58,308 nucleotides of DNA from assembly GCA_024643755.1 (NCBI GenBank), contig JAHEMG010000004.1, positions 1,599 to 59,906 of the forward strand, given 5' to 3'. Of the stretch, positions 21,173-37,842 are shown piece after piece. A model generated the notes under the pieces. It was not told the origin of the DNA, searched no databases, and saw only the letters and a program-made list of their open reading frames with translations. The number at the start of each line of letters is the position of its first letter. Within the stretch, counting starts at the first letter, position 1. Both the position numbers and the translations under genes were made by a program. Origin of the DNA: Flavobacteriales bacterium. GTDB taxonomy: Bacteria > Bacteroidota > Bacteroidia > NS11-12g > UBA955.

Positions 21173-21634
21173 ATGAAAAAAATCATCTTTAGTATTTCGG
21201 CTGTGGCGATGTTGTTCGCAGCTTCTTGTGATTCAAATGGCACAAACGGCGGCGCCATCGACATCAGTGGCAAAACCAAGCAGGAAGTTTTCATGTTGCA
21301 TGCATGGGACTTGAGTTCTTGGAATGATAGTTCAAGCCAGGACAACTACGATAACATTGAAGCTTGTATGAAAGACGATTTCTACACGTTTATTTCTACA
21401 TCACAAGTTGAAATCAACCGTTCAAGTTTAAAATGTGATCCAGCAGATGCTACTACAGAGAAATTCGCATGGAATATGGCTAGCGCTGATGCTTCTCAAG
21501 TAACTGTATTCGGTTATACTTGGGATATTTCTTCTTTAACTGGCGAGCAGATTGTATTGCGTCGCAAATACTTGTACAACTTCGGTGGTACTACCGAGTA
21601 CATTTACTCAAAAGTTGTTTTGAAGAAACACTAA
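21173..21634 (+). CDS. Small lipocalin-like lipoprotein
   Basis: A 153-aa protein with a lipoprotein signal (MKKIIFSISAVAMLFAASC). The mature part resembles small Bacteroidota lipocalin-like proteins: an early W (HAWDLSSW), an acidic-Cys segment (IEACMKDDFYTF), a second cysteine (SSLKCDPAD) that could form a disulfide, then beta strands (VTVFGYTWDISSLTGEQIVLRRKY). Ligand and role are unknown. The preceding track ATG at 21161 lies inside the -7 element and is rejected. Its stop overlaps that of the convergent TPR lipoprotein gene by 4 nt. Confidence 0.75.
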   Translation: MKKIIFSISAVAMLFAASCDSNGTNGGAIDISGKTKQEVFMLHAWDLSSWNDSSSQDNYDNIEACMKDDFYTFISTSQVEINRSSLKCDPADATTEKFAWNMASADASQVTVFGYTWDISSLTGEQIVLRRKYLYNFGGTTEYIYSKVVLKKH

Positions 21635-22638
21635 GAACCCAACAGTTTCAGACCCTCTTTGGCCAACGTGCAATTGGGGTTGATAGAAAGAGCGGCTTTG
21701 TATTCTTGCATAGCCGCTTTTTTGTTGCCCATTTTTTCATAGGAATACCCTTTCAGAGCCAGGGCATTTTCAAAAGATGGATTGAGATCCAAGGTCTTAT
21801 CACACCAATCAATACAAGCTTCGTGATTATCGAACAAAGATTGTATCACCGCCAAGTTATAATGAGCGTATACATGATTGGGATTCACTTTAATTACTCG
21901 TTCGTAATGGTCTTTGGCATCCGCGAATTTTGACTGCTTTTGCAAGATTAAACCCATGGTATACAAGGCCTCGTCGCTAAATTCATTCATTTTAACCGCC
22001 TTGGTAGCCCAAGCCAATAATTGTGGATCGTTGCGATAGTTCAGCATCATCACTTTCTGCATCACTGCATCGAAATTCTCAGGATTGATGGTAAGCGCTT
22101 TATCAATAATGGCTTCTGCTTTTACCGTGTCTTTCTGTTCTTTGTAAGCGATTGACAGCATTACATAGGCTGGATCTGCAAATTCTGGTTGGTCAAGCAA
22201 ATCCTTATATAATTTAATGGCTTCGGGATATTGTTGTCGCGCCAAATGATATTTTGCCAACAGTGATTTCGCTGCATGGTAATCGGGTTTCAGCGACAAG
22301 GCATCAGTAAGGTGCATTTTGACCTTCTCGGAGTTGGTGGAATCCATGGAAATCCATGTTTCCGCACAGCGAAAATGATAGAGTGGCTGCTTGGGATTTA
22401 ACGTAATGGCGAATTCAAAATCACCCACTGCATCGGAATATTTTTTCTCGTAATAGAAGGTGTTGGCCCGTTTATAGTATAGCTCAGCTTCTTCGGGTGA
22501 TTTATTGATTTTAGCAGAAATAGCACGAATATCCTCTGAGTAGTTGGTATCGTTTTCGCTGATGAAACGGCTGGTATCCCGTTCGTTGTTGCAAGAAAAA
22601 GCAAGGGATAGAATGATTGAGAAAACAATCTTCTTCAT
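21631..22638 (-). CDS. TPR-repeat lipoprotein
   Basis: A 335-aa protein with a lipoprotein signal (MKKIVFSIILSLAFSC). Almost the whole mature part consists of tetratricopeptide repeats, for example ELYYKRANTFYYEKKYSDAV, ALYTMGLILQKQSKFADAKD and HVYAHYNLAVIQSLFD. Such proteins act as membrane-anchored interaction platforms; the partner is unknown. The track ORF extends to 22737, but those first 33 residues are a translation of the tRNA-Leu gene, so 22638 is the start. The gene lies 3 nt below the tRNA 3' end and is probably read from the same transcript after tRNA processing. Confidence 0.88.
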   Translation of the reverse strand: MKKIVFSIILSLAFSCNNERDTSRFISENDTNYSEDIRAISAKINKSPEEAELYYKRANTFYYEKKYSDAVGDFEFAITLNPKQPLYHFRCAETWISMDSTNSEKVKMHLTDALSLKPDYHAAKSLLAKYHLARQQYPEAIKLYKDLLDQPEFADPAYVMLSIAYKEQKDTVKAEAIIDKALTINPENFDAVMQKVMMLNYRNDPQLLAWATKAVKMNEFSDEALYTMGLILQKQSKFADAKDHYERVIKVNPNHVYAHYNLAVIQSLFDNHEACIDWCDKTLDLNPSFENALALKGYSYEKMGNKKAAMQEYKAALSINPNCTLAKEGLKLLGS

Positions 22639-22641
22639 TTG

Positions 22642-22727
22642 TGCTCGGGACGGGAATCGAACCCGTACTTTCATTACTGAAAACAGGATTTTAAGTCCTG
22701 CGCGTCTACCTATTCCGCCACCCGAGC
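22642..22727 (-). tRNA. tRNA-Leu (anticodon UAA)
   Basis: An 86-nt gene with complete cloverleaf elements. The acceptor stem is GCTCGGG/CCCGAGC with discriminator A, and the anticodon stem CAGGA/TCCTG encloses the loop CTTAAAA, giving anticodon TAA. A class II long variable arm follows, and the T-arm is CGGGTTCGATTCCCG. The anticodon complement is at 22691-22693. CCA is not encoded. The gene reads TTA codons and directly precedes a TPR lipoprotein gene on the same strand. Confidence 0.97.
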
Positions 22728-22758
22728 GAGGATGCAAAAGTACGAAATTCTCTTTGAA

Positions 22759-35700: not shown

Positions 35701-36220
35701 TGTTGAGTTGCCGATGTGGGCGCAAGCAGGTCCTATGTTTGGTACTACCGTTTTGGATATTGATGGGAACGGTTTCGATGACATTCTTTGCACCGGCAAT
35801 AACTACAACACCCGCGTACCGCATGGTCGTGATGATGCCCAACCTAGCTTCGTATTGTTCAACAATGGAGGCAGTTTCACTTATCAATCAGGTTCACGTA
35901 ATGGATTGTATAACCAAGACGATGGAAAATCATTGATTTTATGTCCCGGAGCCAATGGACAAGTCAGAGCGATCATGGCTAACAACAATGGAAAACTCAG
36001 GGGTTACACTTTGTTAAACGGTAAAAACCAACCCCAAAACATCTCTTTTGTTACAGCCCCACCAATGGCAAGTTATGCCAAGGTAACTGTAAATGGATCT
36101 CTAAAAATGGTTGGTCTTAACGGCGGCACTGGTTACTTGACGGGCAATGTACCTGGTGTTTGGAAAACGAAAGGCGTCGACAAAATCGAGTTCTTTGATG
36201 TTACCGGACGCAGGTTGTAA
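32705..36220 (+). CDS. Double beta-propeller VCBS/FG-GAP lipoprotein with ASPIC/UnbV domain
   Basis: A 1171-aa lipoprotein (signal ending LLASSLFSC). I count 14 calcium-loop repeats of the type DxNxDGxxDLxx. Seven (DINNDGKNDLYF to DLDGDGRLDLVV) precede an ASPIC/UnbV-like domain of about 100 residues (SRGYQSSSEAIAHIGLG), and seven (DVNGDGLQDLFV to DIDGNGFDDILC) follow it. This implies two seven-bladed propellers joined by the UnbV domain. Such CRTAC1-like proteins are abundant in Bacteroidota; the role is unknown, with adhesion or glycan binding possible. A 7/8 near-match to a -7 element (TATTATTG) is 5 nt before the ATG, so it may have its own promoter or be read from rodA. Confidence 0.88.
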   Translation: MNNVRFKQLYVRSFTAVLLASSLFSCGDSNDENVDVLFEKIESDVTGIDFVNTVPENDTLNQFTYHYLYNGSGVAIGDINNDGKNDLYFSGNEKSSRLYLNKGDFKFEDITEKSGTGTKQWISGVTMVDVNNDGWLDIYACSSGPKQLKQSKRNLLFINQKDGKFKESAKEWGVDDGGNATCATFFDYDNDGDLDFYLGNHADQFFSNINTRFTPTLNMDEFNQQHFFRNDGNKFTDVSEKAGVVKMGYCLSAAAADYNNDGLTDLYVCNDYHVPDCYYINNGDGTFTDQFDVAFKHSSTNSMGSDVADVNNDGFSDLITVDMLSESPRRYMSLMGPKDYDYTMVGIKNGYKNQYMKNNLQMNLGNGHFADLSYLYGVAKSDWSWSPLLSDFNDDGFTDMFVSNGYYRDVTNLDFILYQSIVEQQQKRGLTHEELLKKLPYEKIQNFFFQNNQGQGFVNRASEVGLDDLTLSTGSATGDLDGDGRLDLVVCNQGEVPLVYKNIHTQNHFLNVKAEGSDRTNKFGIGCQLFVSDSSGKYRKFEIQPSRGYQSSSEAIAHIGLGENESLSELVVVWPNGKAQILKDVSCDQTLVVKSADANTTWDRNLVRTGDIPFFTENESEWGLNFNHVEQENPDFKREPLLPHRYTTLGPGMSAGDVNGDGLQDLFVGNARESKGSTLFLLQKDGKYSVAGSQPWQSLDADVMGSLLFDCDGDRDLDLYVAVGGSEFEWPSNKYQHQLYLNDGKGNFSVAKDRLPNVVSSSSSVSSSDYDSDGDLDLFVAGRLMPGNWPTLEVRSYLLQNNGGKFRDVTAALAPDLENAGMICSAIFSDYNGDGKPDLLLAGEWMPLIFMENTGGKFVNKTGEVGDASLSGWMNSITPTDIDNDGDLDYIVGNKGNNSFIQAKVGSPTKVFWADFDGNGRQDIAMSYHYGGSDYPLFTMDEMGKAYPFFINKKFTTYNDFAGKTMEEIFGAEVLKQNSLTANYFSNFVAINNGGKFSFVELPMWAQAGPMFGTTVLDIDGNGFDDILCTGNNYNTRVPHGRDDAQPSFVLFNNGGSFTYQSGSRNGLYNQDDGKSLILCPGANGQVRAIMANNNGKLRGYTLLNGKNQPQNISFVTAPPMASYAKVTVNGSLKMVGLNGGTGYLTGNVPGVWKTKGVDKIEFFDVTGRRL

Positions 36221-36237
36221 TAACTTTCAAGGTATAG

Positions 36238-36268
36238 TTGTATTTTAATATGTAAAACACTATTTTTG
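36238..36268 (+). promoter_or_regulatory. Promoter of the 51-codon basic gene
   Basis: TTG (36238-36240), a 20-nt spacer, and TATTTTTG (36261-36268), matching the Bacteroidota -33/-7 pattern. It lies just after the VCBS gene and 18 nt before the small ORF. Confidence 0.7.
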
Positions 36269-36286
36269 CAACCTAATTGTAAGAAC

Positions 36287-36442
36287 ATGGCTGTTACTAA
36301 ACTCAAAAGAAAAGAAGCAAAAAACAGAAGCAGAATGACCAAGCGCGTTGATAACATCAAACGTTTGAAGTTGGTTACCACTATCGCTTCTCCATACAAA
36401 GGCATATCTGGAATCGTCTTGGAAGACCAAGAAAACCAATAA
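36287..36442 (+). CDS. Small highly basic protein (51 aa), unknown function
   Basis: Absent from the ORF track because of its size. The ORF runs ATG to TAA and encodes 51 residues beginning MAVTKLKRKEAKNRSRMTKR and ending GIVLEDQENQ. I count 13 Lys/Arg, 12 of them in the first 28 residues, against 5 acidic residues, so the N-terminal half could bind RNA or a ribosome. The C-terminal half contains TIASPYKGISGIVLED. It has a consensus promoter immediately upstream and a strong terminator 21 nt downstream, so it forms its own transcription unit and is very probably a real gene. I recognise no named family, and ribosome association is only an inference from composition. Confidence 0.8.
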   Translation: MAVTKLKRKEAKNRSRMTKRVDNIKRLKLVTTIASPYKGISGIVLEDQENQ

Positions 36443-36463
36443 ATGTCATTGTTTTAGATATTG

Positions 36464-36492
36464 AAGGCACGCATATTTGCGTGCCTTTTTTT
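36464..36492 (+). terminator. Intrinsic terminator after the small basic gene
   Basis: A 9-bp perfect stem AAGGCACGC/GCGTGCCTT with an ATATTT loop runs directly into a T tract. It ends plus-strand transcription 21 nt after the 51-codon gene and before the haloperoxidase gene. Confidence 0.88.
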
Positions 36493-36507: not shown

Positions 36508-37842
36508 ATGAACGCAACTATGCTCAAACGCACACTACTGTTTTCAATCATCGGCCTCAGTTTATTTCAAAACGCTTGTCAAAAAGCCACTGAAACTGAG
36601 AACAAGATCATTCAAAACGACATTCTCTCGATTTGCAATATGGCCATTCAAAACGCCATTGTTGTTGACCACGTAGCCGCACCTGTAGGATCGCGCAGAT
36701 ATGTGTATGCATCAATCGCCGCCTATGAATCATTGGTGCCCTTTCATTCAAATTATCAAAGTGTCGCCCCCATGATGAATGGATTAAAAGCCACACCATT
36801 GCCTGATACCACACAGAAATATTGTTTGGATTTGGTTGCCATGGCTGCGCATACCTATGTGAGTCAGAAATTGGTCTACAAAGAAGACAGCATCGCAAAT
36901 TTCAGGAAGCGACAACTAGAATTTTACCAAGACAAAATGTCGAATAGCATGTTCGAAGCCTCGATCAGTTATGGCGATAGCGTGGGTTCACACATTGTAA
37001 AATGGTCAAAATCTGACTCATTTGCTTATTTCCGTGGACGCGAATTTTTCTTAACCAAAAACAACCCTGGTTCATGGGAGCAAACACCCCCAGATTTCAT
37101 GGAAGCCATCGAACCAAATTGGGGCAGAATCCGTCCGGTTTTGGTAAAATCAGTCAGAGAATTTCAATTTGATGCGCCGGAGCCATACAGTACAAACAAA
37201 CAATCGCGTTTTTATGCCATCGCCAAACAGGTATACGACACAGTAAATTCAAAAGACACGAACCAACTTAAGACTGCTTGGTATTGGGATGACAATCCAA
37301 ATGCATCCGTGCATTATGGTCATGCTACAATCAATGTGCTGAAGGTATCTCCTGCGGGACATTGGTTATCGATGTTTTCAACGGTGGCTCGACAAAAGAA
37401 CTATTCATTGATGGAAACGGCTGATGGTATGGTTCGATTATCTTCTGCCATATTTGATGCCTTTATTACTTGTTGGCACGTAAAGTATAAAACAGATTAT
37501 TTAAGACCGATCACTGCGATCCATGACTTGATCGATTCTAGCTGGAACTCTCCCATTCAAACACCCGCTTTTCCTGAGTATCCTTCAGGTCACAGTGTGG
37601 TATCAAGTGCCGCAGCTACCGTGTTAACGGCAACCTTTGGAGAATATGAGTTTACTGATAGTGCCGAATTCAAATTTGGTTTGGGTGTGAGAAAATTCAA
37701 GAATTTCAGGGAGGCTAGCAACCAAGCTTGCATGTCGCGCTTATACGGCGGCATTCACTTTATTGATGCGATAGAGAAAGGTAAGAAGTTGGGCAACGAG
37801 GTTGGAAATTACCACGTTACCCATCTTAAAACAAAACGATAA
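36508..37842 (+). CDS. PAP2/vanadium haloperoxidase-like lipoprotein
   Basis: An approximately 444-aa exported lipoprotein (signal ending LFQNAC). The C-terminal half carries the vanadate/phosphate-binding motifs shared by vanadium haloperoxidases and PAP2 phosphatases: KYKTDYLRP (Lys and Arg), YPSGHSVV (Ser-Gly-His) and SRLYGGIH (Arg and His). The overall length and N-terminal helical region fit vanadium-dependent haloperoxidase-like proteins rather than small PAP2 lipid phosphatases, but the activity cannot be decided from motifs. The track start at 36481 is a GTG inside the terminator; ATG at 36508 or 36520 is right. It has no obvious promoter; some read-through of the terminator, or an unrecognised promoter, is needed. 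Confidence 0.85.
   Translation: MNATMLKRTLLFSIIGLSLFQNACQKATETENKIIQNDILSICNMAIQNAIVVDHVAAPVGSRRYVYASIAAYESLVPFHSNYQSVAPMMNGLKATPLPDTTQKYCLDLVAMAAHTYVSQKLVYKEDSIANFRKRQLEFYQDKMSNSMFEASISYGDSVGSHIVKWSKSDSFAYFRGREFFLTKNNPGSWEQTPPDFMEAIEPNWGRIRPVLVKSVREFQFDAPEPYSTNKQSRFYAIAKQVYDTVNSKDTNQLKTAWYWDDNPNASVHYGHATINVLKVSPAGHWLSMFSTVARQKNYSLMETADGMVRLSSAIFDAFITCWHVKYKTDYLRPITAIHDLIDSSWNSPIQTPAFPEYPSGHSVVSSAAATVLTATFGEYEFTDSAEFKFGLGVRKFKNFREASNQACMSRLYGGIHFIDAIEKGKKLGNEVGNYHVTHLKTKR

Follow-up and report, generated by a model that had tools for sequence, protein, structure and literature searches.

A single-copy 51-codon gene of several Bacteroidia orders may encode an undescribed lineage-specific ribosomal protein

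The closest described counterparts of the protein reported here are very small proteins of the ribosome. The protein bL38 (DUF4295; PF14128), which belongs to the large subunit of F. johnsoniae (PDB: 7JIL), is a basic, lineage-specific protein of about 50 residues encoded by a single-copy gene. The protein bS22 (AURKAIP1/COX24-like; PDB: 7JIL, 8FMW) is very small, rich in Lys and Arg, and easily left unannotated. The mycobacterial ribosome contains bL37, a much smaller helical ribosomal protein of restricted distribution, and two Borrelia ribosomal proteins were unannotated until cryo-EM was combined with mass spectrometry (PMC10618245). Bacteroidota ribosome chains for both bL38 and bS22 are held in the PDB. 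The window analyzed here, a stretch of 58,308 nucleotides from a Flavobacteriales bacterium, encodes a 51-residue protein, MAVTKLKRKEAKNRSRMTKRVDNIKRLKLVTTIASPYKGISGIVLEDQENQ, which shares these general properties with bL38, bS22 and bL37. It is nevertheless unrelated in sequence to bL38, and bS22 differs in having only 30 residues and in being basic throughout. In addition, bL38 and bS22 are each encoded by a separate single gene in 16/16 genomes tested, including that of the window. The protein bL37 comes from another phylum, and the family described below matches no PDB chain sequence.

The first-pass annotation had recognized no named family in this protein, and none emerged from Pfam, NCBIfam or the PDB. 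Neither Pfam nor NCBIfam contained a match to the window protein at E values up to 10, and a comparison of 50 family members with NCBIfam gave no meaningful match. Sequence and fold searches of the PDB, with the protein or with the profiles, returned nothing credible, and a match to L24 (E value 1.1) was treated as due to chance. No description of the family was found in the literature searched, which was largely that outside subscription journals. The similarity in size and charge might suggest a divergent form of a known small ribosomal protein (bS22/AURKAIP1-like, bL38/DUF4295, or THX) which the existing models have missed. The window protein, however, has no match to PF14128, and the true bL38 gene is located elsewhere in this genome (G000:C98:40757-40900). 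The only match in the genome to the F. johnsoniae bS22 is likewise at another locus (G000:C150:62510-62596). A THX-type 30S protein was rejected since there was no NCBIfam match at E values up to 10 in a library that presumably includes the THX model. With separate copies of both known genes in 16 genomes, including this one, a divergent known protein is very unlikely.

The features of the locus are collected in Table 1. The Bacteroidetes -33/-7 promoter consensus is TTTG/TANNTTTG, in which the -7 element has the form TAHHTTTG (PMC6847099). The first-pass annotation had described a compact monocistronic 51-codon gene with its own promoter, TTG-N20-TATTTTTG, and a terminator, and all of these elements are present in the sequence. 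The spacing between -7 element and start site given in PMC6847099 predicts that transcription begins at about 36273, which leaves a leader of about 14 nt. The start codon at 36287 is preceded by A at both -3 and -6, and PMC6847099 ties this feature, together with a short leader, to efficient initiation in F. johnsoniae. A longer TTG start at 36266, which appears in the ORF list, is unlikely in view of the predicted start site and the lack of conservation of the upstream residues. The terminator was correctly placed by the first-pass annotation as an intrinsic one downstream of the ORF, but its stem is slightly longer than the 9 bp claimed. The region folds with -19.4 kcal/mol (z = -5.9), and 0/200 shuffled sequences were equally stable. 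No Rfam match was found at the locus, and a regulatory RNA was dropped from consideration. An antisense ORF of 90 residues, 36133-36405 (-), overlaps the small gene and is probably an accident of sequence. The gene that follows (36508-37842) encodes a predicted lipoprotein of the PAP2/vanadium-haloperoxidase-like type; as its listed GTG start at 36481 lies inside the terminator, the ATG at 36508 or that at 36523 is likelier. Elsewhere in the window, a tRNA-Leu(taa) at 22641-22727 (-) lies within a listed TTG-started minus-strand ORF (21631-22737), and the start of this ORF was thus probably called too far upstream.

Table 1. Features of the small gene and its product, in positions of the window
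Feature	Position	Strand	Basis
-33 promoter element (TTG)	36238..36240	+	sequence; separated from the -7 element by 20 nt
-7 promoter element TATTTTTG, consistent with TAHHTTTG	36261..36268	+	sequence; kept in 30/31 family loci
51-residue coding sequence	36287..36442	+	ATG at 36287, stop ends at 36442; frame and start conservation, dN far below dS, single copy
Basic helix, codons 5-29, best-conserved region of the family, with LKRK core	36299..36373	+	AlphaFold; conserved alignment columns
C-terminal motif of the window's order, codons 35-47, SPYKGISGIVLED, replaced in other clades	36389..36427	+	alignments
Intrinsic terminator hairpin, 11 pairs, loop of 4, then T tract	36463..36488	+	sequence; folding

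Comparison with related genomes indicates that this is a genuine gene under strong purifying selection. Homologues with a preserved frame, on whose existence the first-pass annotation had staked its claim, were decisively found. The same ATG opens the conserved stretch in the homologues extracted, while the residues encoded before it vary. The substitution check which had been proposed gave a dN far below dS: over 47 codons the nearest relatives differ from the window gene by 5-9 synonymous and 0-4 nonsynonymous changes (dS 0.18-0.38; dN 0-0.04). For the whole family the pooled pN/pS is 0.31, a value obtained with synonymous sites that are largely saturated. Across the window's family, 30/31 distinct loci carry the promoter pair, compared with about 1.4 expected from shuffled sequences. 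In these 30 loci the -7 element, found within 60 nt, is always 15-20 nt away from the ATG, and all 30 have a TTG 18-23 nt upstream of that element. Terminator-like hairpins follow the gene in 15 of the 31 loci under a strict perfect-stem test, for which 0.1 would be expected. The hairpins occupy the same place in the relatives and differ in sequence between species, which indicates that structure rather than sequence is kept. In the window's family the gene is monocistronic. The shortness of the ORF and the overlapping antisense ORF would also be compatible with a chance ORF, a conserved non-coding stretch or a regulatory leader ORF. The low dN, the constancy of frame and start across orders in spite of changing neighbours, and the possession of its own promoter and terminator nevertheless make such an origin exceedingly improbable.

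The distribution of the family was followed with profiles of increasing breadth, built for the window's order (A1), more broadly (A2), and wider still (A4 and A7). In the window's order the gene is present as a single copy in 53/58 related genomes, and in 41/43 of those of good quality. The A1 profile reached relatives in the Cytophagales, including Marinoscillum and Flectobacillus, by way of the N-terminal half. Using A2, exactly one copy was found in 142/146 genomes (77/79 genera) of the Cytophagales-like order and in 101/101 genomes of the Sphingobacteriaceae-like order; these clade names, and likewise "Flavobacteriaceae-like", are inferred assignments. The small gene has been kept in 9/10 members of family f69, whose genomes measure 0.7-1.8 Mb. 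The A4 and A7 profiles added families f80, f85, f91, f93, f102, f112 and f118, with one copy each. Among 396 genomes sampled across the class Bacteroidia, 89 match. The most divergent members were assigned by profile from 40-50 residues of biased composition; that they start at a consistent position, give single hits and, in f80, f102 and f112, have conserved neighbours argues that they are real members. In Flavobacteriaceae-like family f6 and in other families, the broad profile (E values up to 10) detected only sub-threshold pieces, mostly within longer frames. No comparable small basic ORF was found behind the arginine decarboxylase gene in 28 genomes of Flavobacteriaceae-like groups. The family thus seems truly absent from these groups, though an unrecognizably diverged form might exist elsewhere. 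There were no plasmid matches to the family. Near-universality, a single copy, and retention in small genomes, which is the pattern looked for in a ribosomal protein, are all found here. The small protein is the founding member of a previously unnamed family which occurs in nearly all genomes of at least three order-level groups.

Members of the family mostly have 40-60 residues and a highly basic N-terminus, which usually begins with M[AG]VT-x-LKRK. Residues M1, R8 and K9 are invariant across alignments A1, A2, A3 and A7. In the window protein there are 13 K/R compared with 5 D/E overall, and the translated product confirms the count of 12 Lys/Arg in the first 28 residues given by the first-pass annotation. 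AlphaFold predicts a helix at residues 5-29 both in this protein and in a member from the Cytophagales, with a pLDDT of about 90 over residues 1-20 of the former. The C-terminal half is of low confidence and extended in the window protein, and forms a short second helix in the Cytophagales member. The ASPYKGISGI sequence, previously noted as part of a distinct C-terminal half, is indeed present there, and this half proves to be clade-specific. The version in the window's order is SPYKxESGIILED, to which the forms in f80 and f102 are close, while that of the Cytophagales is PVIKNVDVEAIKxxF, that of the Sphingobacteriaceae is ELGSRSAxxxxQxxKNNAVLA, and that of f112 is xxLGSYxN. Some members are extended by a long tail of Lys/Ala/Pro/Glu or by a helix-hairpin-helix domain. 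In a second family of the window's order (L033, L037, L038, L039, and L040) the latter is C-terminal and follows a Lys/Ala/Pro/Glu linker. These members resemble the helix-hairpin-helix proteins (HHH_5; PF14520) in this domain, which is absent from the window protein. The tail is also similar to the NCBIfam models of L21 and S2 fusions. A ribosomal protein sharing it was not found in the same genomes; a predicted membrane protein carries it instead (L165-L170), and the tail was consequently dropped as evidence for a ribosomal role.

The genes adjoining the small gene differ between clades. In the window's family one neighbour encodes an FG-GAP/UnbV protein and the other a PAP2-like lipoprotein; valS lies on the opposite strand, about 1.4 kb downstream. 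In the Cytophagales-like order 33/87 loci have hisS upstream and divergent, in 31 of them within 300 bp. Examples of the divergent arrangement are L131, L125, L065 and L238, and the two genes may share a control region. In the Sphingobacteriaceae-like order 21/22 loci have a gene for a SpoU-type rRNA methylase immediately upstream and in the same orientation. In f80, f102 and f112 an arginine decarboxylase-like gene is directly upstream in many loci. This arrangement (L276, L278, L279, L282, L283, L290-L294, L329, and L330) was not seen in the window's order. In the remaining clades the neighbours are unrelated to translation. No link to ribosomal-protein operons was found, and the families that led the survey of neighbours included no transcription genes. 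Because the neighbours differ between clades, an argument from operon structure was dropped; the hisS and SpoU methylase genes of two clades support, short of proof, a role in translation.

Taken together, we consider it somewhat more than an even chance that the small protein is a lineage-specific ribosomal protein, i.e., a stable component of the ribosome. This explanation is based on its small size, basic helix, single gene copy and own promoter, on a near-universal occurrence that extends to small genomes, and on the lack of enzymatic features. It is favoured by the strong purifying selection, by the Bacteroidetes-type promoter with its short leader and A at -3/-6, by the lack of plasmid matches, and by the neighbours in two clades; the missing link to ribosomal-protein operons and the unrelated neighbours elsewhere count against it. 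No solved ribosome chain matches the family, but this is weak counter-evidence because F. johnsoniae, the source of 7JIL, belongs to a group in which the gene was not found. A search for ribosome structures or proteomes from the carrier orders likewise yielded none. The first-pass annotation had likened the protein to a small ribosome- or RNA-associated one, which agrees with the composition, predicted fold, universality, copy number, small-genome retention and two-clade neighbours, and is not helped by the fusions or by the other neighbours. The same composition and predicted fold, and the same hisS and rRNA methylase neighbours, would also suit an RNA-binding translation factor that is free or binds transiently, such as an aid to rRNA assembly, a binder of tRNA or mRNA, or a hibernation factor, which is not a stoichiometric component. 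The variable C-terminus, which in some members carries a long charged tail or a helix-hairpin-helix domain, points in this direction as well. However, a near-universal distribution that extends to small genomes is more typical of structural ribosomal proteins than of accessory factors, and a protein of 40-60 residues without a folded core suggests one that is ordered only on a scaffold. Such a factor is on balance unlikely, at roughly one chance in a handful. A small protein associated with the nucleoid or with RNA polymerase appears more doubtful again: a basic helix and fused helix-hairpin-helix domains suit DNA too, and near-universality suits a polymerase accessory, but there is always one copy, no DNA-binding fold is predicted, and the neighbour survey offers no transcription genes among its leading families.

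For the ribosomal protein proposed here, we infer RNA binding, location on the ribosome, stoichiometry and level of expression. A strong promoter of its own and a short leader would ensure a high level of production. The Lys/Arg-rich N-terminal helix would lie in or alongside an rRNA groove. The C-terminal half, which varies between clades, might contact a neighbouring ribosomal protein or rRNA helix. One such protein would be present per ribosome as a structural stabilizer or assembly aid, in the manner of bL38, bS22 and bL37. The fuller proposal, of an undescribed ribosomal protein in several Bacteroidia orders, absent in Flavobacteriaceae-like groups, with one conserved rRNA-binding helix and C-terminal tails exchanged between clades, is to us an evenly balanced one.

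A near-universal single-copy gene for which there is neither a Pfam nor an NCBIfam model represents a gap in annotation, and probably also in the parts list of the ribosome. With a profile built from the family alignments, thousands of genomes would have the gene named at once. If the protein is ribosomal, then the composition of the ribosome varies inside one bacterial class, and F. johnsoniae is not representative of all of its relatives. The family would also offer a case for studying how lineages gain a ribosomal protein and remodel its tail.
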